NCBI GenBank assembly: GCA_017161075.1
Contig: CP046174.1
Location: 682,001 to 746,000, forward strand
DNA: 64,000 bases
Reading direction: 5' to 3'
Origin: Erysipelotrichaceae bacterium 66202529
GTDB taxonomy: Bacteria; Bacillota_I; Bacilli_A; Erysipelotrichales; Erysipelotrichaceae
Part shown: piece by piece, positions 3,171 through 54,902 of the stretch
How positions within the stretch are numbered: position 1 is the first letter of the stretch
Layout: each line of letters starts with the position of its first letter
Made by a program: the position numbers and the translations under genes
Notes under the pieces: generated by a model
Told to the model about the DNA's origin: nothing
The model's input: only the letters and a program-made list of their open reading frames with translations
Database searches by the model: none

Positions 3171-3457
3171 GAATATTACCTCCTGCTTTCTATTATAGCA
3201 TGTCCTGCTGTGAAATAAGAAAAGGTGACAGAAGTGATACCTAAATAGAGGGAAATAGGGTATAATGAAACAAGAAAGCAGGTGATTTATAGTGAAAAAA
3301 GCATTGCCGATCGGCGTTGTGAATTATCGGGAGATACAATACGAAAATTATTATACTGTAGATAAAACGATGATGGTTCAGGAATTTCTGGAACGAAAAA
3401 GCAAGGTTACCTTAATCACCCGCCCGCGAAGGTTTGGAAAGACGTCGAATATGTCGA

Positions 3458-3477
3458 GGCGCTGCCCACCCTTGGTG
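3458..3477 (+). repeat. Double-hairpin micro-insert 1
   Basis: These 20 bp lie between the A and TG of an ATG (Met) codon directly after the P-loop region. Excision gives N-M-S-M-L-A-E-F-F. The insert is two adjacent mini-hairpins: GGC/GCC with loop GCT, and CACC/GGTG with loop CTT. It is strongly GC-rich inside an AT-rich gene. It shifts the frame by +2. Confidence 0.85.
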
Positions 3478-3846
3478 TGCTTGCTGAATTTTTTGATATC
3501 ACGAAAAGCTCAAAACAGTTATTTGAGAAAACGAATATCAGTGGTTCGGAGTATATATCTCAAATGAATCAGTATCCTGTTATTTTTCTATCCTTTGCAA
3601 ATGCGAAAGGGAATCTTACAGCTATTGTAAAAGCTATAAAAGAGGAAGTCAAGGATGCCTATAAGAAATATCAATTCGTCCTGGAGGATATCAACTTTTT
3701 TGACCAGCCGTATTATCAGGTAATTCTCAATGGTCTGGGAAATCCGGAGGATGGTGATATTGCAAATATTGATAATGCAGTATCCTTCCTTATGAAAAAG
3801 CTGGAGTATATTATCATAAAAAGGTGATAATTCTGATTGATGAATA

Positions 3847-3867
3847 GGCTAAAGCCCGCCTTTGGTG
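3847..3867 (+). repeat. Double-hairpin micro-insert 2
   Basis: These 21 bp lie between TA and T of a TAT (Tyr) codon in the Walker B motif. Excision gives I-D-E-Y-D-T-P-F. The two hairpins are GGC/GCC with loop TAAA, and CGCC/GGTG with loop TTT (one G-T wobble). The length keeps frame, but the junction makes an immediate TAG stop. Confidence 0.85.
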
Positions 3868-4158
3868 TGATACACCGTTCATAGAAGCGCATGTACATGG
3901 CTTTTATCATGATATCCGCGCGGGGTTATCATCCCTGCTGCACAACGCATTAAAGGATAATGATTCCCTGCAATATGCCATGCTGACAGGAATACAGCGC
4001 GTAGCGAAAGAAAATGTTTTCTCTGATTTGAATAATTTAAAGGTATTCACTGTACAGGATAAGGAGTATGCGCAGTGGTTTGGCTTTACAGAAACAGAGG
4101 TCAGAGAGTTACTGGAATATTATGACTTGTCGTATAGTGATGAAGTTAAAGCGATGTA

Positions 4159-4178
4159 GGCGGTGCCCACCCATGGCG
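4159..4178 (+). repeat. Double-hairpin micro-insert 3
   Basis: These 20 bp lie between TA and T of the TAT codon of the YDGY motif. Excision gives K-A-M-Y-D-G-Y-H. The hairpins are GGC/GCC with loop GGT, and CACC/GGCG with loop CAT (one A-C mismatch). The junction creates an immediate TAG, and the length also shifts frame. Confidence 0.85.
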
Positions 4179-5007
4179 TGATGGTTATCATATCGGTGAT
4201 TTCGATATGTATAATCCATGGTCGATTATCAATTATGTGGATGAAAAGGAATTAAAGCCGTATTGGGTCAATACAAGCTCGAATACGATGATTAAGAATG
4301 CAATGGAACAAAGCGATAGGACATTCAAAAAGGGGTATGAGAAGTTACTGGAACAGGGATGGCTGGATACGCAGGTAAGTATCAATACGAGCTTCTACGA
4401 ACAGTCAAATACTGAAAATTTATGGGGACTGTTCGTGAATGCCGGATATTTAACAATCGATCAAGAGTTACCCATGAAAAAGGTGCGGATTCGTATTCCC
4501 AATCAGGAAGTGCAGGAAGAATTTATGTCATTAACAGCGTATTACCTACATGTTTCCGATACATTGCTGAATGACTTATTTGCGGCATTGTTAACAGAGG
4601 ATGAGACGGCCTTTCTGGAAACCTATCGAACGATTCTGTTAACGCTTCCTTCCTATTACGATTTAAAGAATGAAAATTCCTTTCACATGATGATGCTGGG
4701 AATGTGTGCGTGGTTAAGCAATGATTATACGATTTCCAGCAATAAAGAGAAAGGCAAAGGCAGAAGTGATATCGAATTAAAAGCAAAGACGAATCGCTTT
4801 CCATCGTTTGTTATGGAAATGAAATATATGAAGACAGAGGAATATAAGAAGCATCCGGAAGCATTGAAGGTACTGGCACAGGAAGGGCTTCAGCAAATCC
4901 AAAAACAGACATATGATATAGACTTAACAGGGATGGTTATATACATCAGTTTGGCACATGCCGGAAAAGATGTGGAAATGATATGGCAGAAAAGCAGTAT
5001 CACATGA

Positions 5008-6153: not shown

Positions 6154-7566
6154 GTGAATTTCATTCAGGAATTATTAGGAAATCTAAATACATTTTTATA
6201 TAGTAATATATTGCTTGTACTGCTGGTGGCGGCAGGGCTATATTTCAGTATACGGACAGGCTTTGTGCAGTTTCGTATGCTGGGGGAGGGGATTCGTCTT
6301 TTAAAGGAAAAGGCACATCATCATGATGGAGTATCCTCTTTTCAGGCGTTAATGATATCAACTGCTTCTAGGGTAGGAACCGGTAACATCGCAGGAGTTG
6401 CGACCGCACTGGCAGCAGGAGGGGCAGGCTCCATCTTCTGGATGTGGGTTATTGCTTTGATCGGAGGAGCCAGTGCTTTTGTGGAGTCCACGCTGGCACA
6501 GATCTATAAGGAACGCGATGGGGATCAGTTTCGCGGCGGGCCTGCGTATTATATAGAAAAAGCATTGCAGAAAAGATGGCTGGGTATTTTGTTTGCCGTA
6601 TTGCTGATTGCCTGCTTTATCTTCGGCTTTAACGGATTGCAGGCGTATAATGTAAGCAGTGCTCTGGAATATTATATAGCGGATACACAAACAGCCTCTC
6701 TTATGGTAGGGCTTGTTCTTGCAGGTGCTACTGCAGCAGTCATATTCGGTGGTGTTCATCGTATCGGTATCATCAGCTCTACGATTGTTCCCATCATGGC
6801 CGTGCTGTATATACTGCTGGGACTTTACATAACAGCTTCCAACATCAGCGGACTACCGGCGATATTCACACAGATTTTTCAGGAAGCCTTTGATCTGCAG
6901 GCTATTTTTGGAGGCTTTGCGGGCTCCTGTGTTATGTATGGAATCAAGCGCGGACTGTTTTCCAATGAGGCGGGAATGGGCTCTGCACCAAATGCCGGAG
7001 CAACCGCAGACGTTTCTCATCCGGTAAAGCAGGGACTGGTACAGACGATTTCAGTATTTATTGATACGATACTCATCTGTTCAACGACAGCCTTCATGCT
7101 GCTGAATTACGGTATTGAGGACGGGCTGACAGGAATGCCGTATGTCCAGACTGCAGTTTCTGCTGAGGTAGGCGCATGGGGAATCCATTTCATAACCATT
7201 TCTATAATCCTGTTTGCATTTTCTTCATTGATAGGAAACTACTGCTATGCGGAAAGCAATTTGAAATTTATCATGAATGATAAGAAGGCATTGCTCATAT
7301 TCCGTCTGGTGACAATCGTAGTGATTTTCTTTGGGGCACAGGCAGATTTCTCTACCATATGGGATTTAGCCGATGTGCTAATGGGCTTTATGGCAATCGA
7401 AAATATTATCGTTATTTTGCTGTTAGGCAATATCGCTTTCCTTGCATTAAAGGACTATACAAAGCAGAAGCAGCAGGGAAAAGATCCTTTATTTGAACCG
7501 GAAAAGCTGGGCATTAAACATGCAGAATGCTGGGAGAGCATTGATGAGGAATATACAGAATCCTGA
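6154..7566 (+). CDS. Sodium:alanine/glycine symporter (AGCS family)
   Basis: This 470-aa polytopic membrane protein imports alanine or glycine with Na+ (or H+). The family motifs are present: the N-terminal GxxQFRM-like segment, SRVGTGNIAGVATA, GGPAYYIEKAL and the SNEAGMGSAPNA region. About ten or eleven hydrophobic segments are seen, and the length is normal for AGCS. The GTG start at 6154 follows GGAAAGGAAG. It is monocistronic, with its own promoter and a terminator over the stop. Substrate preference cannot be told from sequence. Confidence 0.92.
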   Translation: MNFIQELLGNLNTFLYSNILLVLLVAAGLYFSIRTGFVQFRMLGEGIRLLKEKAHHHDGVSSFQALMISTASRVGTGNIAGVATALAAGGAGSIFWMWVIALIGGASAFVESTLAQIYKERDGDQFRGGPAYYIEKALQKRWLGILFAVLLIACFIFGFNGLQAYNVSSALEYYIADTQTASLMVGLVLAGATAAVIFGGVHRIGIISSTIVPIMAVLYILLGLYITASNISGLPAIFTQIFQEAFDLQAIFGGFAGSCVMYGIKRGLFSNEAGMGSAPNAGATADVSHPVKQGLVQTISVFIDTILICSTTAFMLLNYGIEDGLTGMPYVQTAVSAEVGAWGIHFITISIILFAFSSLIGNYCYAESNLKFIMNDKKALLIFRLVTIVVIFFGAQADFSTIWDLADVLMGFMAIENIIVILLLGNIAFLALKDYTKQKQQGKDPLFEPEKLGIKHAECWESIDEEYTES

Positions 7567-7799: not shown

Positions 7800-8981
7800 A
7801 TGACTAAAATTGATATTATCTCCGGCTTTCTGGGAGCTGGAAAAACGACGCTGATCAAGAAGCTGATCAAGGACGTATTACATAACGAAAAGGTTGTACT
7901 GATTGAAAATGAATTTGGTGAAATCGGCATTGACGGAGGCTTTCTGAAGGATGCCGGAATCGAAATACGTGAAATGAACTCCGGCTGCATCTGCTGTTCG
8001 CTGGTGGGAGATTTCTCAGAGGCTTTGAAAAAGGTACTGCAGGAATATCAGCCGGATCGTATTGTCATTGAGCCAAGCGGTGTTGGTAAGCTATCCGATG
8101 TAATTCGGGCTGTACAGGGTGTGGAAGAAGAAGCCGGTATTTGTATGAATAGCTTTACAACGGTGGCAGACGCTCAAAAATGCCGCATGTATATGAAAAA
8201 TTTTGGAGAGTTTTTTAACAATCAGATTGAATATGCGAATACGATCATTTTAAGCCGCACACAGAATCTGAGTGAGGATAAGCTGCAGGCTGTTACACAT
8301 GATATAAGAGAGCATAATGCACATGCGACTTTTATTACAACACCATGGGATGAATTAAGCGGAGATCAGATTCTGGAAGCAATGGAGCATACGCATTCTT
8401 TGGAAAAGGAGCTTCTTGAAGAAACAGAAATCTGTCCGGAATGCGGGCATCACCATGCACATGGAGAGCATCATCACGAGCATGGAGAAGGCTGCTGCCA
8501 TGACCACGAGCATCATCATGAGCGTGGAGAAGCTTGCTGCCACGACCATGAGCATCATCACGAGCATGGAGAAGGCTGCTGCCATGACCATGAGCATCAT
8601 CACGAGCATGGAGAAGAATGCTGTCATGACCATGAGCATCATGAACATGGAGAAAGCTGCAGCTGCACACAGGAACACACGCATCATCACCATCATCATG
8701 CGGATGAGGTCTTTACAAGCTGGGGTATGGAGACCGTGCGCACCTATACGGAGCAGGAGCTTACGCATATCCTGCAGGAGTTATCTGAAAAGGAAGGCTA
8801 TGGGATCATTCTGCGTGCTAAGGGTATGCTGAAATCAGAACATAATGAATGGCTGTACTTTGATTTGGTACCGGAGGAATATGAAATCCGTAAGGGTCAG
8901 CCGACCTATACCGGAAGATTCTGTGTCATTGGCTCCAAGCTGAATGAACAAAAACTGAAAGAGCTTTTTGCGGCAGAATAG
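7800..8981 (+). CDS. CobW/ZNG1-type GTPase metallochaperone with His/Cys-rich repeat
   Basis: This is a 393-aa G3E GTPase of the COG0523 family, thought to hand metal (usually zinc) to client proteins. It has the P-loop GFLGAGKTT (9-17), the metal-binding CxCC motif (C63, C65, C66), a conserved E-N-E-F-G-E segment and a C-terminal CobW domain (about 310-393). Between the domains, about residues 211-302 form a metal sink made of 14-residue repeats of His, Glu, Gly and paired Cys. It is the first gene of a two-gene operon with a second CobW protein, 9 bp upstream of it. Zinc limitation response is the likely setting (inference). Confidence 0.92.
   Translation: MTKIDIISGFLGAGKTTLIKKLIKDVLHNEKVVLIENEFGEIGIDGGFLKDAGIEIREMNSGCICCSLVGDFSEALKKVLQEYQPDRIVIEPSGVGKLSDVIRAVQGVEEEAGICMNSFTTVADAQKCRMYMKNFGEFFNNQIEYANTIILSRTQNLSEDKLQAVTHDIREHNAHATFITTPWDELSGDQILEAMEHTHSLEKELLEETEICPECGHHHAHGEHHHEHGEGCCHDHEHHHERGEACCHDHEHHHEHGEGCCHDHEHHHEHGEECCHDHEHHEHGESCSCTQEHTHHHHHHADEVFTSWGMETVRTYTEQELTHILQELSEKEGYGIILRAKGMLKSEHNEWLYFDLVPEEYEIRKGQPTYTGRFCVIGSKLNEQKLKELFAAE
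8499..8663 (+). repeat. 42-bp in-frame tandem repeat encoding HDHEHHHExGExCC units
   Basis: Four near-identical 42-bp units encode 14-residue His/Cys metal-binding units. The last unit is shortened by one His. The first two differ by a His-to-Arg change. The length can change by slippage without loss of frame. Confidence 0.85.
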
Positions 8982-35995: not shown

Positions 35996-36029
35996 GTTTT
36001 AGGACTATGTTTCCTAATTTCCTAAAACA
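35996..36029. repeat. Inverted repeat after the amidohydrolase
   Basis: GTTTTAGGA pairs with TCCTAAAAC over a 15-nt loop. There is no T-run on the plus strand, so it is not a standard terminator. Confidence 0.5.
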
Positions 36030-36513
36030 GTACGGGAATCATAGTGATCCTATCTTTTTGAATGGCATCTCCTTCTGTAACGCATTTTATCTATACTCTT
36101 CATAGCGTTTATAACCTTAAACTTTTTTGTAAGACATGGTTTCTCATATGATGGTACAGCAAAATGGACAATCAGTCACATGAAATAGCTTCATGACCTT
36201 AAAATGGATGATATGAAACGAGAAATTATGGATGAATATCTGGCAGGGTTGAAGTCTATACGTTACCCCAACTTCATATCTTACTTTTCCATGAGCATTA
36301 TCTTTACCCTGATATATTTTCACAGTATAATTTATAATATCCTCTTGTTATTCAGCTTATTCTTTGTGGGAAGATATTGTTTCTTCATAGATTAGTTTCA
36401 TATTATCAGTTGAACTCAAACTATTGTTTTCTTTTGAAGAACAACCAAAAAGTAAACACTGATATAAACAACAACTTGAAATTATGCAAAATTATTTTAC
36501 AGAATATTATTTT
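36030..36513. other. AT-rich gap
   Basis: A 63-codon frame at 36204-36395 with two hydrophobic segments has no ribosome site, and I do not call it. The rest is AT-rich and without a clear feature. Confidence 0.35.
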
Positions 36514-36684
36514 TTATTGATTTTTTTTGAAAAAAATCAAATATATACCACTCGCGATTCCTATACAGGAATTTATTCTTAAAAGTAAAGGATTAATAGA
36601 TATCAAACCCCATGAACTTAAGTAAATAAGTAAGCATAAAGAGAATATTACTTTTAATAATATATCAATCTTTCTAGTTTTCAT
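36514..36684 (-). CDS. Small membrane protein, 56 aa
   Basis: This short gene codes 56 residues with two hydrophobic segments (about 6-24 and 39-52) and ends in a basic KKNQ tail. Its ATG overlaps the stop of the 76-aa secreted-peptide gene as ATGA, so the two are translationally coupled. The coding 3' end lies in a long TTGATTTTTTT/AAAAAAATCAA palindrome. I do not recognise it. The size, coupling and topology fit an immunity or maturation partner of the upstream peptide, which is inference. Confidence 0.6.
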   Translation of the reverse strand: MKTRKIDILLKVIFSLCLLIYLSSWGLISINPLLLRINSCIGIASGIYLIFFKKNQ

Positions 36685-36911
36685 TTATACATCACCAATT
36701 CTTGAATAAGTGGCTTTATAGTAACCGGCATTGCATGGTCCTGAATGAATAAACCCTGTTTCTCTAAATCACTGAAATCATAATTTTGATTAGAAGAAAT
36801 ATTGTTATTTGCTTGTATCTGTTGTGTATTAGTTGAAATAAAGATTGCTAGACATACTGATATGATTACGAGAATAAGGACTGAGTGTTTATTAATTATT
36901 GATTTTTTCAT
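36681..36911 (-). CDS. Small secreted peptide with signal sequence, 76 aa
   Basis: The protein has a basic N-terminus (MKKS), a hydrophobic core (residues 11-25) and a likely signal-peptidase site near QIQA-NN. This would leave about 42 mature residues rich in Asn, Gln and acidic residues. A strong GGAAAGGAG site supports expression. The region is much more AT-rich than its neighbours. I do not recognise a family. A signalling or bacteriocin-like role is possible. Confidence 0.6.
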   Translation of the reverse strand: MKKSIINKHSVLILVIISVCLAIFISTNTQQIQANNNISSNQNYDFSDLEKQGLFIQDHAMPVTIKPLIQELVMYK

Positions 36912-37674
36912 AAGCTTCTCCTTTCCTATTTATTTATGAATTTAAAGTCTAAATTAACCATATTTTCACGTTCCCATCCATCTATTTATAGTTAAATAAT
37001 ATACCGTATTTATATGTAACACAATGCTTTTTTATTATTTATATACATGTTATAATAAATTTTTATTAAAAATTATAAGGGTGTATTGACTTTCCTTATT
37101 TCAATTTATCACTTTTGTCATATCCATATTATGGTAATGGCAGAATTAGAAAAGTGCAAAATCTGATAATAGCATATGAAAATGAATATTCTGGAGTTTT
37201 TAATGCAGATAACGCAATCAGGTATGATACTATTTATAAAATACCCTAAAACAAAAAAAACCTGCAAAATAGGCTGCTGAAAAAGTCAAATTTTATAATG
37301 TATTTCAAAAAAAATTACTGTGTATCTGGTAAAAGTGGTAGATAACTATCTAAAATGAATGTTTTTTACAGCACTTGTGGAACATAATTTTATGATTAGC
37401 GACTTTTTCAGCAGGCTCCTGAAAAAGGCATTTTTTTGTTCTGTATACTATTCAAACTCTGCAGTGCTTTGCAACAATTGAGCTTCCTGCCTGTTTCTAA
37501 TGTTGTATTCGTTTATGTCTTGCTATGGAAAAGAAGCATCAGGGTTATTCTCATGCAAAACCTGCTTGCCATTTTCTGGCAGCCGTCTTATAATTTCAGA
37601 AAGAAATATAAGACTTGCGTGAGCATGAAACTTGTTTATCTGATGGTTTCGTAATCAGGAAAGGATGAATACAA
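36912..37674. other. AT-rich intergenic region with MITE-like element
   Basis: This stretch holds the likely promoter of the peptide operon and the inverted-repeat element at 37270-37421. A 72-codon frame at 37436-37654 has no ribosome site and is not called. Confidence 0.4.
37270..37421. mobile_element. MITE-like element with 14-bp terminal inverted repeats
   Basis: CTGCTGAAAAAGTC (37273-37286) recurs inverted as GACTTTTTCAGCAG (37403-37416), with a non-coding centre of about 115 bp. The ends resemble those of IS1182-type elements. No transposase and no clear target duplication are seen. Confidence 0.6.
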
Positions 37675-38844
37675 ATGAAAATTGCCCCATATACAGAAAA
37701 AGAACGGGAGCATTTAATCATGCTTCGCCGCTGGTTTCATGCACATCCGGAGGCCAGTCTGCAGGAATATAAAACAGCAGAGAAAATTGAGGAAGAGCTG
37801 GACCGGTATGGAATCACACATCGCCGTATTAAGGAAACCGGTGTGTATGCACAGATAAACGGAGAACAGGGAAGTGGAAAGGTGCTTGTATTACGGGCGG
37901 ATACCGATGCCTTATCCATGGACGATCTGCTCGATCAAAGCTATCGTAGTGTACATCCGGGCTGTGCACATACGTGCGGTCATGATGCGCATACAGCGGT
38001 ACTGCTGCTTGCCGCCAAGCTGCTGCAGGAAAGAAAAAAGGAGTTTTCTGGAGAGGTGCGCTTCTTTTTCCAGCCGGGAGAGGAAATCGGGCAGGGAGCC
38101 CGTACCTTTATACAGGAGGGCTGTCTGAAAGGAGCCGACCGTATTTATGGCGCGCATATGTGCAGTGCGCTGGATGTGGGGACGATATCCCTGACGCCGG
38201 GACCAATCAATGCCAGCTGTGATTATTTCCGTATCCATATCCAGGGAAAGGGCGCTCATGTATCCACTCCGCACAAGGGAATTGATGCCTTGTATATCGC
38301 CTCACAGCTTGTGATAAATCTGCAGTCCATCGTATCACGGTCATTATCGCCGCTGGATACCGCGGTTGTCGGTGTTGGGACGATGCGTGCTGGGAGACAA
38401 TATAATATTGTGGCAGAGGAAGCCCTTTTGGAGGGAACGACCCGCAGCTTTTCAACCGATACCAGGGCCTACCTCAGGCAAAGGGTATGTGAAATTGCAG
38501 AGCAGAGTGCAGCATTATATGGCGCTGTTGCAGAGGTGGAATTTCAGGATTATGCGGCACCGCTGATCAATGACAGACAGGTGGTCGCAGATGTTACACC
38601 GATTGCAGAGAGCATTGCCGGTAAGGGTTATGTAATTTCCAATCAGGAGAAAATGATGCAGGCGGATGATTTTGCGGATTATCTGGCGCTGGTACCTGGC
38701 TGCTATGCCTTTATCGGCTCCAGAAATAAGCAATATGCAAACAGTGCGTTGCCTCATCATCATGCACAGTTTGATATTGATGAGGAAGCGATGCTGTTGT
38801 CTTTAGCGGTGTTTGTACAATATGCTCTGCACTATCTGGCGTGA
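37675..38844 (+). CDS. M20D-family amidohydrolase (hippurate/IAA-amino acid hydrolase-like)
   Basis: This 389-aa metallopeptidase-like enzyme has HAHPEASLQEY, LRADTDAL (metal Asp), TCGHDAHT and QPGEEIGQGA with the catalytic Glu pair, and a dimerisation domain in the middle. It removes acyl groups from N-acyl amino acids. GGAAAGGATG precedes the ATG. It is followed directly by a small unknown gene. Confidence 0.92.
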   Translation: MKIAPYTEKEREHLIMLRRWFHAHPEASLQEYKTAEKIEEELDRYGITHRRIKETGVYAQINGEQGSGKVLVLRADTDALSMDDLLDQSYRSVHPGCAHTCGHDAHTAVLLLAAKLLQERKKEFSGEVRFFFQPGEEIGQGARTFIQEGCLKGADRIYGAHMCSALDVGTISLTPGPINASCDYFRIHIQGKGAHVSTPHKGIDALYIASQLVINLQSIVSRSLSPLDTAVVGVGTMRAGRQYNIVAEEALLEGTTRSFSTDTRAYLRQRVCEIAEQSAALYGAVAEVEFQDYAAPLINDRQVVADVTPIAESIAGKGYVISNQEKMMQADDFADYLALVPGCYAFIGSRNKQYANSALPHHHAQFDIDEEAMLLSLAVFVQYALHYLA

Positions 38845-52412: not shown

Positions 52413-52456
52413 CACGAAAGAAGCGTCCCGTTCAAAATGACATTGACGCTTTTTTT
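52413..52456. terminator. Bidirectional terminator after the LevR-like gene
   Basis: AAGCGTC pairs with GACGCTT over a 17-19 nt loop, with T-rich sides on both strands. It overlaps the end of the LevR-like gene on the minus strand. Confidence 0.6.
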
Positions 52457-54902
52457 ACACCGTAGTCTGCTGTTGGCAATCCCGCTCCATATCTGCCTCC
52501 TCCATCTCACAGCCGTTGATTAAATCAACAAAGATTTCAGACAGACGTGCAATCTCACTGGAAGGGATGCTGATGCCGAATAAATCATTGATCAGCTCCA
52601 TATTGCGGTCAATGGCAGTGTATACATCACGGCTTGTTGAAATGATACTGTTTGTATTCTTATAGCTGAGTGGTTCTCGGCGAATGACACGTTCAATCAT
52701 GAACGCACTGTGAAAAATAAAGCGGATCGAAATATCATTTGTATAATTCAGGCCGAGATCCTCATATATCTGCATCAGAACCCGAAATAAAGCCATTGTT
52801 GTTTTCTTTGGATTCAGGAAAACAAGGGAATCGGATAAAATCTTATCGGCTACATCATCCAGCGTTTTCTGAATTTCCGTACCATAGCCTGTAGTATCAT
52901 TTTGCGGCAGCTGCAGCGCAGTGCCAAAGTCATACGTACGAATATCTTCCAGATGGATTTGCGGATTGTTTACCATATTCATAATCTGAATCAGCAGGGG
53001 AAGCGAGGTTGGAGAAAGTGTAACGGTTTCTATATCTGCGCTGCTTCTTATCGTTGCGTCAAAATCCAGAAGCGGATTAAGATCAGTGATGATAACAACA
53101 CCGCTTCCGTTATCTATTTCCCTGACCTTATCCACAACACTCGTTAAAAAGTCTGTCAGATTTTTTGCGGATGCCGAGCCGGCTTCATCCATATAATGGC
53201 ATTTTACATGATATTTCATCGTATTGACATGTGTAGCATACTTCTCGGCAATACCCTCTCCCTGACAAGCTACTAAAACAGCGATACTTCCCTTCCTTTT
53301 ATACTCCCGTGAATATAAAAGATAACAGTAGAGATACAGCCGTTCCATATCCGGAAGCTGAATTTGAAAGCATTCCATGAGACTTGTACAAAGCGCTTCA
53401 CAAAGAGGACGGATAGCGACGTCCTCCATTTCCACATCCGGTAAAAAGGCAGGAACATAGGTCTGATGCTTTACGATGGAGAACACATTGTTTAGCCGGT
53501 AGCATAGCTTATCTAACTGCTTTTCCTGCATGGAGAAGCTATAAGCATCCATAACCGGCAGGATACAGTCCCGGATTTTTTGCAGGGACAGGGAGTAAAG
53601 CTGATTGATTTCCAGCTTTTGTGCATGGCGCAGCTCCTGCTTGCAATATTCGGAGAGCTTCGGCTCCTGCTTGGTAAATGCCTGTATGATACCATCCTCC
53701 TGTATACTGCTGTGCAGCAGCTTCTGCAGTGGAAGGCACTCTGTTTCCGGAATGAGAAAATGATTTTTTTCCTGCAGGGCTGCGGTGATGCTTTCAATGA
53801 TGGGTAAGAGGTCGGATACATTTTGTATGCTTGCGAGCAGATCATCGGAAAGATGCTGATAATCAATAGTGATAAAGGTTTCCTGCTGACTGCCGGATTG
53901 TACATAGGCATAGGAAAGAGCATGGCGCAGCTCCTGTATCAGGCTTTGTAAATTGTTCTGATAGTGGGCGGTGGCAAAGCAGTTCAGGATGGAGGAGGAA
54001 AGCGAAATCGTCTTGCCGATGGCATCCGCCTCATTTTGCATAAAGGACAGCACAAATTCGTATTTTTCCTTCAGTGTTCGTTCGTCAAGAGAAGGTATAT
54101 GACAAATTTTCTGAAACAGTGCATGCATTGGCTTCAGTTGCTCACTCTCTTGGCCAACAGCCAGTATGAGCATGTGCAGGTCATTATCCTCTGCTAGCTT
54201 CTGATAAAAACGAAGCAACGTTTCCATCGTGCACAGACAGGAGGGCTGCATGGCAAGCATATCCAGATTTTCCAATAGGATGATATTATCTTTCTCCTGA
54301 TCCAGTGCGGCATCGATTCGCTCCATGATATCGGCAATCGTTGTTTTATTAAGCATCAGCGCAGCACAGTCAATATGCAGCAGTTGATCCCTATCTATTT
54401 TCAGATATTGTAGAATGCCGTGTAAAAGATGGTGTCTGCCGCTTTTATCCGGCCCCGATAGTAAAATTGAACGCAGTGTCTGGGGATAGGAAAGATAGAT
54501 TTTTATATCCTCAATTATGGTATATAGAGATTCCCTTTGCGAATAACCGATACATCCGGTAAATGCCTCCTGTGCTGTCTCGTGAGGAAGTGTTAGCGAG
54601 TGCTCCAGATAATTTCCCAGCTGCTCATCCTTGGGAATCAGTGCCGGTATATAAGAATTCGGATAACGCTTGAGAATGGTTTTCCGGTGCAGATAAAAGG
54701 TTGGGCGTCCCTGTATCTTAATCAGTATATTCTCACGCCATAAATCATTTTGCATCCGGCTGACATTTGCACGGTCCAGCTTCAAATCAAGACTGATGGT
54801 AAAGGCATCCGTATTGATTCCGGTATATTCTTTATTTGCGATTGCGATGGATGTGATTTCTGCAATATGCTGCAGCAACTGATTTCTTCTTGAATTCTTC
54901 AT
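52455..54902 (-). CDS. LevR-type PRD regulator with degenerate AAA+ and IIA domains
   Basis: This 815-aa protein follows the LevR layout: N-terminal winged helix (about 30-75; DRANVSRMQNDL), AAA+ region (about 115-330), PRD, mannose-IIA-like domain (about 560-650) and a second PRD with HSAFMIERVIRRE. The P-loop reads GPDKSGRHH instead of a GK(S/T) motif, and the Walker B region reads ILLENLD. In the IIA domain the phospho-His position reads ACQG, so it is Gln. ATP-dependent sigma-54 activation and IIA phosphorylation therefore look lost. It may act as a plain DNA-binding regulator tuned by PRD phosphorylation. Confidence 0.85.
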   Translation of the reverse strand: MKNSRRNQLLQHIAEITSIAIANKEYTGINTDAFTISLDLKLDRANVSRMQNDLWRENILIKIQGRPTFYLHRKTILKRYPNSYIPALIPKDEQLGNYLEHSLTLPHETAQEAFTGCIGYSQRESLYTIIEDIKIYLSYPQTLRSILLSGPDKSGRHHLLHGILQYLKIDRDQLLHIDCAALMLNKTTIADIMERIDAALDQEKDNIILLENLDMLAMQPSCLCTMETLLRFYQKLAEDNDLHMLILAVGQESEQLKPMHALFQKICHIPSLDERTLKEKYEFVLSFMQNEADAIGKTISLSSSILNCFATAHYQNNLQSLIQELRHALSYAYVQSGSQQETFITIDYQHLSDDLLASIQNVSDLLPIIESITAALQEKNHFLIPETECLPLQKLLHSSIQEDGIIQAFTKQEPKLSEYCKQELRHAQKLEINQLYSLSLQKIRDCILPVMDAYSFSMQEKQLDKLCYRLNNVFSIVKHQTYVPAFLPDVEMEDVAIRPLCEALCTSLMECFQIQLPDMERLYLYCYLLYSREYKRKGSIAVLVACQGEGIAEKYATHVNTMKYHVKCHYMDEAGSASAKNLTDFLTSVVDKVREIDNGSGVVIITDLNPLLDFDATIRSSADIETVTLSPTSLPLLIQIMNMVNNPQIHLEDIRTYDFGTALQLPQNDTTGYGTEIQKTLDDVADKILSDSLVFLNPKKTTMALFRVLMQIYEDLGLNYTNDISIRFIFHSAFMIERVIRREPLSYKNTNSIISTSRDVYTAIDRNMELINDLFGISIPSSEIARLSEIFVDLINGCEMEEADMERDCQQQTTV

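Follow-up and report, generated by a model that had tools for sequence, protein, structure and literature searches.

Three short inserts in a DUF1703-type gene

The window analysed here is the whole 64,000-nucleotide (64-kb) stretch of the Erysipelotrichaceae bacterium 66202529 genome given as positions 682,001 to 746,000 of contig CP046174.1; all coordinates below are those of the window. Near its start lies a gene of DUF1703 type, whose open pieces match in Pfam both domains expected of that family, i.e., AAA-ATPase_like (PF09820) in the N-terminal pieces and PDDEXK_9 (PF08011) in the C-terminal piece. The gene is interrupted by three inserts of 20, 21 and 20 base pairs (bp) with shared arms and differing loops, just as the original prediction, made from the letters of the window, had described them. 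The features of the locus are as follows.

3292..5007, + strand: DUF1703-type AAA-ATPase/nuclease gene (Pfam matches; orthologue P0001 aligns in four frame pieces)
3292..3567, + strand: 91-residue reading frame shortened by insert 1, the query for finding further filled copies
3458..3477, + strand: insert 1 at site A, 20 bp, GGC-GCT-GCC-CACC-CTT-GGTG (from sequence; site empty in P0001)
3804..3812, + strand: small additional frameshift, net -1 or +2 (the alignment switches frame at about P0001 residues 162-165)
3847..3867, + strand: insert 2, 21 bp, GGC-TAAA-GCC-CGCC-TTT-GGTG (from sequence; site empty in P0001)
4159..4178, + strand: insert 3, 20 bp, GGC-GGT-GCC-CACC-CAT-GGCG (from sequence; site empty in P0001)
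4207..5007, + strand: open C-terminal frame carrying the nuclease domain (Pfam; match to P0001)

Insert 1 splits a Met codon (GKT.NMS^M, adjoining the P-loop) between its A and TG, and breaks the frame. Insert 2 falls within the Tyr codon of LIDE-Y-DTP (a Walker B-like motif) and keeps the frame, and insert 3 falls within the Tyr codon of AM-Y-DGYH and breaks it; each of these two creates a TAG at the joint. All three sit between A and TG (tcgA^TG, aatA^TG and tgtA^TG). In the sense strand of insert 3, the second stem is interrupted by an A-C mismatch. The strict motif 5'-GGC-N3/4-GCC-CRCC-N3-GGYG-3', set beforehand in the original prediction, occurred three times in the window, counting both strands, when loops of 3-5 were allowed, and was absent from 50 first-order Markov resamplings. 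When the scan was loosened to any adjoining stems of 3 and 4 bp, the window yielded 8 matches, namely the three inserts, an overlapping register of insert 1 and four others; six resampled sequences gave between 1 and 6 matches each.

A protein search returned P0001, a 558-residue orthologue that is 98% identical to the open C-terminal part of the window gene. Its identity to the four frame pieces was 53/55 (96%), 109/112 (97%), 107/128 including 14 gap positions (84%) and 270/274 (99%). The three insert sites are all empty in P0001, which reads uninterrupted through NMSMLAEFF, IDEYDTPF and KAMYDGYH, and comparison with the window showed no target base duplicated or deleted at any of them. Because this near-identical gene is empty at all three sites, the inserts are true and precise insertions; a search for filled and empty sites in orthologues had been proposed as a check on the original prediction, and it yielded three such pairs. 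Tandem duplication was rejected as their origin, no flanking repeat of the inserts having been seen, and target-site duplication was rejected likewise. The separate frameshift near 3804-3812 means that the window copy is probably a pseudogene, whatever the inserts do.

Private inserts in close relatives

The close relatives carry short inserts of their own. P0001 has a private insert of 7 residues at KEN^VFSD, P0002 (95% identical) one of 6 residues at SSN^REKG, and P0003 (75% identical) two of 7 residues each, at NSF^HMMM and IEF^KYMK. The remaining 117 of the 120 homologues listed showed no private runs of at least 4 residues apart from a 9-residue run in P0004 and differing N-termini, in a screen that would miss inserts common to more than seven sequences. 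The strict motif could be reverse-translated from 3 of the 10,856 distinct 10-residue windows of the 120 homologues; all three represent the P0001 insert, in inverse orientation, making P0001 the one full-length relative of the 120 in which the motif is possible. The P0001 insert and one of the two P0003 inserts (RYCAPEA) would allow a double hairpin with all-GC stems of 3 and 4 bp, compared to a background of 0/1500 windows. P0002 also shows an in-frame deletion that fuses VRELLE directly to QGWLD; it probably arose between copies of the short direct repeat gttactggaa, which the window copy contains in two places.

The window gene and its close orthologue P0001 thus differ at four insert sites. 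Taken together, the seven insertion sites (inserts 1-3 and the four private ones) lie on average in conserved stretches: mean flanking entropy, calculated over three residues on each side, was 0.51 versus 1.15 for all positions (P=0.003; 20,000 draws, 19 non-redundant homologues), with single sites ranging from the 3rd to the 38th percentile.

The same insert at site A in many gene copies

The 91-residue shortened frame, used as query, returned 97 short database proteins. One of these, P0139, is 98% identical to the query over its full length; since the match includes the insert-coded part, insert 1 is present in another assembly. Seventeen of the 97 read GKT.N(M/L)S-RRCPP, i.e., at the protein level they have the same insert in the same codon. 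By eye these filled copies, whose identity to the query ranges from 57 to 98%, fall into six or seven N-terminal types; proteins from [Clostridium] innocuum (P0153) and from a Clostridium sp. metagenome-assembled genome (MAG; P0145, longest contig 243 kb) are among them. Their source codes are ncbi, ena and lgn (the last of which we take to be Logan), and the longest contigs are 104 and 243 kb for two of them. The strict motif was reverse-translatable in 16 of the 17 (the exception is P0156), in each only at site A, and nowhere else among the 97. The original prediction would have fallen had no further copies existed in this or related genomes; copies do occur in related organisms, and the recurrence of one insert at one codon across diverged gene types appears, from these comparisons, to be a new observation.

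The reading frame behind the insert was assessed by seeking DNA that could encode the wrong-frame tail and, read in the proper frame, match the family (P0153 and P0156 were left out). For all 15 testable filled copies there is such a sequence, which fits the family profile over the first 6-14 codons behind the insert; 12 copies scored 0/500 against shuffles, and one copy each scored 1, 4 and 9 of 500.

Three other short DUF1703 proteins (P0201, P0204 and P0207) break at or near the P-loop and have other tails (GKTIN-TPCAPGG-REHDV; and RPRRF-HRNIA twice, continuing differently). These may possibly be further insert types or joints.

Joints at site A

When filled copies were paired, 27 pairs proved at least 94% identical over the 52 residues preceding the insert, and 21 of these were comparable (at least 7 tail residues); the 21 pairs arise from 10 proteins of two N-terminal types, hence they are not independent, and the register of P0156, which enters 3 of them, is uncertain. 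For 19 of the 21 the tails were at most 50% identical, the extreme being 52/52 residues upstream versus 1/14 downstream. The remaining two are near-alleles, with tails matching at 13/14 and 12/14 residues. Conversely, P0149 and P0154 agree at just 35/52 upstream residues, yet at 7/7 comparable tail residues. As a control, 105 full-length insert-free copies gave 1748 pairs with at least 94% upstream identity, whose tails were 86-100% identical; these pairs derive from only 31 distinct upstream strings, and their tails are in the proper frame.

Folding of the inserts

Folded on their own as RNA, inserts 1 and 2 form the double hairpin, with z-scores against dinucleotide shuffles of -0.11 and -0.54; insert 3 as sense RNA, with its A-C mismatch, does not fold in this way (z +0.65). 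Within 40-41 nucleotides (nt) of context the z-scores were -0.36, -2.10 and +0.44, the middle value arising from a different fold. In the three DNA copies available, the long stem varies at its second pair (A-T, G-T, A-C), a variation that could follow from CpG C-to-T changes in an ancestral CGCC...GGCG. Selection on RNA structure was therefore not supported, as the isolated inserts are no more stable than their shuffles; the earlier argument that constant stems with variable loops mean selection on structure does not agree with these z-scores, nor with insert 3, which as sense RNA does not take up the double hairpin, and was drawn from just three DNA copies.

Distribution searches

No copy of the inserts was found outside the host gene family in the sets searched, the genomes in which all come from outside the host lineage. 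Seventy-one viral loci with pattern matches (45, 19 and 7), mostly of high GC, contained no relative of P0001. The 139 genomes of the family around a Faecalimonas sp. MAG gave one exact motif match, at a locus without a P0001 relative, and the motif was not found in 30 distant AAA-ATPase loci (some places being counted twice). Plasmid and phage records held no similar DNA, and the protein relatives within them were all below 60% identity. The C-terminal piece had no match in the genome collections. Searches of the class and phylum to which a Sporosarcina genome belongs, and of a small order and class, brought up AAA-ATPases of at most 46% identity, and the regions examined from three genomes held no close relative of the window proteins. 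With PADLOC, P0001 and P0004 matched no family, and the relative P0069 weakly matched mad8 (E 0.0003). Such inserts were not described among the literature matches listed, which for broad topics were 12-20 of hundreds to thousands.

Other genes of the window

A second window gene, encoding a LevR-type protein (52455-54902) that is 75% identical to [Clostridium] innocuum P0124 and 99% to P0121, served for comparison. From these identities the bacterium is probably a sister of [Clostridium] innocuum. Among the ten best of its 18 homologues, no comparable insert was found in the seven that are near full length and at least 59% identical (P0121-P0124, P0126-P0128), and the strict motif was reverse-translatable in none of the 18. 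Long gaps were seen in P0124 and P0125, and the fragment P0129 has a 6-residue private run near its start.

The AGCS-type transporter (6154-7566) was 65% identical to its closest relative among the matches listed from the genome collections; this relative lies in the Faecalimonas sp. MAG (L001, JARICA010000008.1) and is closer than the other listed loci, perhaps as a result of horizontal transfer. The gene at 7800-8981, presumably CobW-like, contains a His/Cys-rich tandem repeat at 8416-8700 (HGEGCCHDHEHHHE). The region 36000-37600 is AT-rich (32% GC in the bin 36001-38000 versus 44% in the bins on either side) and has only three reading frames of at least 60 residues, the longest being 76; it perhaps consists of decayed genes.

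Interpretation of the inserts

We lean, at a little short of even confidence, towards the inserts being copies of a very small mobile or insertion element that have been spread in part by recombination among paralogues. A GC-rich element of 20-21 bp would insert precisely, with neither duplication nor loss of target bases, into DUF1703 AAA-ATPase/nuclease genes of the [Clostridium] innocuum lineage, where it would strike conserved motifs. Insertion would either break the gene or add 7 residues to its protein, and the likely outcome is that the struck copy loses its function. Recombination between paralogues would then spread filled copies and yield mosaic genes with the joint at site A. A trans-acting enzyme, for example of the type acting upon single-stranded hairpins like the Y1 transposases, may make the inserts and perhaps remove them; a hairpin-recognising single-strand transposase is a guess prompted by the lack of target duplication. 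That the elements move is suggested by the four insert sites at which the window gene and P0001 differ. The original prediction of a tiny mobile or hop element has thus gained precise, recurrent insertions with filled and empty sites, from which mobility itself would be a further step.

Several results weigh against a mobile element. The remainder of the 64-kb window has no copy of the motif, all copies there lying in one gene; genome-wide dispersal would be conjecture. No recombinase or transposase was tied to the inserts, although no search was aimed at recombinases. The copies outside the window are known as proteins, from which their DNA was deduced. The P0002 insert fits a double hairpin only when one A-T pair is allowed, at which the background rises to 8/1500, and the second P0003 insert (AFRSTEC) stays incompatible with one when two such pairs are permitted (background 67/1500). 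The tails of filled copies are wrong-frame peptides, which inflates the differences between them. The joints, moreover, are not confined to filled copies: 49 short insert-free copies gave 100 pairs with at least 94% upstream identity (mean tail identity 0.74), 23 of which had tails at most 50% identical. Of these 23, 20 have as a member P0163 or P0164, whose break comes directly after the site; the other 3 are formed by P0162, P0172 and P0174. Finally, the recurrence at site A could represent one insertion spread by ordinary gene conversion.

P0162 and P0174 are insert-free, have a common upstream part, and read LYYFFSNKEK and MAEFFDITKD, respectively, directly behind site A. At the protein level they look like an insert-free pair in which one upstream part is joined to two family-like downstream parts. 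Filled copies, as judged from these sequences, change partner at the insert, but joints there do not need it: as they occur at the same place in insert-free copies, the insert need not cause them. These insert-free joints lower our estimate for a mobile element and raise that for gene conversion.

Gene conversion, a serious rival, is somewhat unlikely in our estimation. It would have one old insertion at each site, spread by ordinary conversion or transfer of DUF1703 genes, with the 20-mers immobile and their hairpin appearance incidental. Frequent recombination among DUF1703 paralogues is reported for Cardinium (PMC6387759), the copies filled at site A share the insert and often the upstream part, and the insert-free mosaic joints near site A, clearest for P0162/P0174, are what such exchange would leave. 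Against it stand the similarly built inserts found elsewhere than at site A, which reverse translation also reveals in inverted form, and the four sites that differ between the window gene and P0001.

A bolder version of the mobile-element reading, which we consider improbable, has a micro-element roughly 20 nt in length homing to the conserved motifs of a single multicopy nuclease family and acting as a crossover point between paralogues, with function restored by precise removal or by ribosomal hopping. The insert-free joints would be healed products, and the overall effect a combinatorial shuffling of gene parts; if true, the element would perhaps be the smallest mobile DNA unit in Bacillota.

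Translational bypass of the byp kind, in which ribosomes would hop over 20-21 nt and the protein would still be produced, is a shade more doubtful. The proper frame is held just behind the insert in the 15 testable copies, over the first 6-14 codons, and the TAG at the joint of inserts 2 and 3 resembles the one that follows the take-off codon in T4 gene 60; for a Prevotella loescheii adhesin, a hop of 29 nt was reported once and not followed up (PMC5009743). Against a hop, none of the five codons preceding each insert equals the triplet one insert length on (the nearest codon pairs being TCG/GGT, GAA/TGG and ATG/TGG), the further frameshift of the window copy would not be mended by it, and the stop-free 21-nt inserts of P0001 and P0003 would simply be translated.

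Cassette shuffling as in a shufflon, with a constant upstream module joined to alternative downstream modules at the 20-mer, is very unlikely. Identical upstream and different downstream parts do meet at the insert in two gene types, and a like tail occurs under two upstream types (P0149, P0154); but the joint breaks the frame, so that the products would be dead unless the insert were skipped or removed, like joints occur without the insert, and the evidence is at the protein level.

An artefact of assembly or library preparation was rejected as extremely unlikely: P0208 and P0210, short matches of the same search, end in peptides (LLYTSRCV and SLIHISEPTRPY) that resemble sequencing-adapter readings and warn that some short database proteins are artefacts, but 17 database proteins from three sources, two of them with long contigs, carry the site A insert, and the frame behind it fits the family.

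Were the inserts self-moving, they would rank with the smallest known units of mobile DNA, within a human-gut lineage whose cultured members would allow direct tests of mobility, of removal and of bypass. The mosaic joints pose a separate question about the exchange of parts in large AAA-ATPase/nuclease families. For annotation, various short "AAA family ATPase" entries may reflect one phenomenon.

Comparison with known systems

The byp elements of Magnusiomyces capitatus mitochondria and T4 gene 60 likewise involve short blocks that interrupt open frames (PMC5009743), and the TAG at the joint of two of our three inserts is a further likeness; for the inserts, bypass is a doubtful reading, and the window copy has another frameshift. 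The Rickettsia palindromic elements are small structured elements within conserved protein-coding genes; they are about 105-150 bp and in frame (PMC2229807, PMC10969869), whereas the inserts are 20-21 bp and two of the three break the frame. The IS200/IS605 and REP/REPIN elements share with the inserts hairpins at both ends and precise insertion without target duplication (PMC7290912, PMC3116915), but the inserts are far shorter in stems and total length and have no linked transposase. A fixed 5' tetra- or pentanucleotide, as used by IS200/IS605, was not found; the flanks are tcga, aata and tgta, with only the last A in common.

In a shufflon, a short shared sequence stands at the joint of a constant upstream and a variable downstream part. 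This arrangement is seen at the protein level in the filled copies, and joints of this kind also occur insert-free; the insert joint differs in breaking the frame, and neither a recombinase nor a cassette array is known for the inserts. The small dispersed repeats (SDR) of Nostoc, described by Elhai in 2008, are reportedly about 21-27 nt long, apparently mobile, and variable in sequence with short predicted stems. Nostoc SDR work is cited in PMC3116915 and PMC2884548. Those repeats are cyanobacterial and dispersed over the genome, whereas the inserts are known in one gene family only, in conserved motifs. SDR are units of roughly 20-30 nt for which both filled and empty sites exist, present in many copies throughout diverse contexts of a genome and keeping their structure by compensatory change; the inserts agree in size and in having filled and empty sites, and their copies in the window lie in one gene. 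The earlier statement that nothing like them had been described in bacteria was too strong, the cyanobacterial repeats of 21-27 nt being a close analogy.
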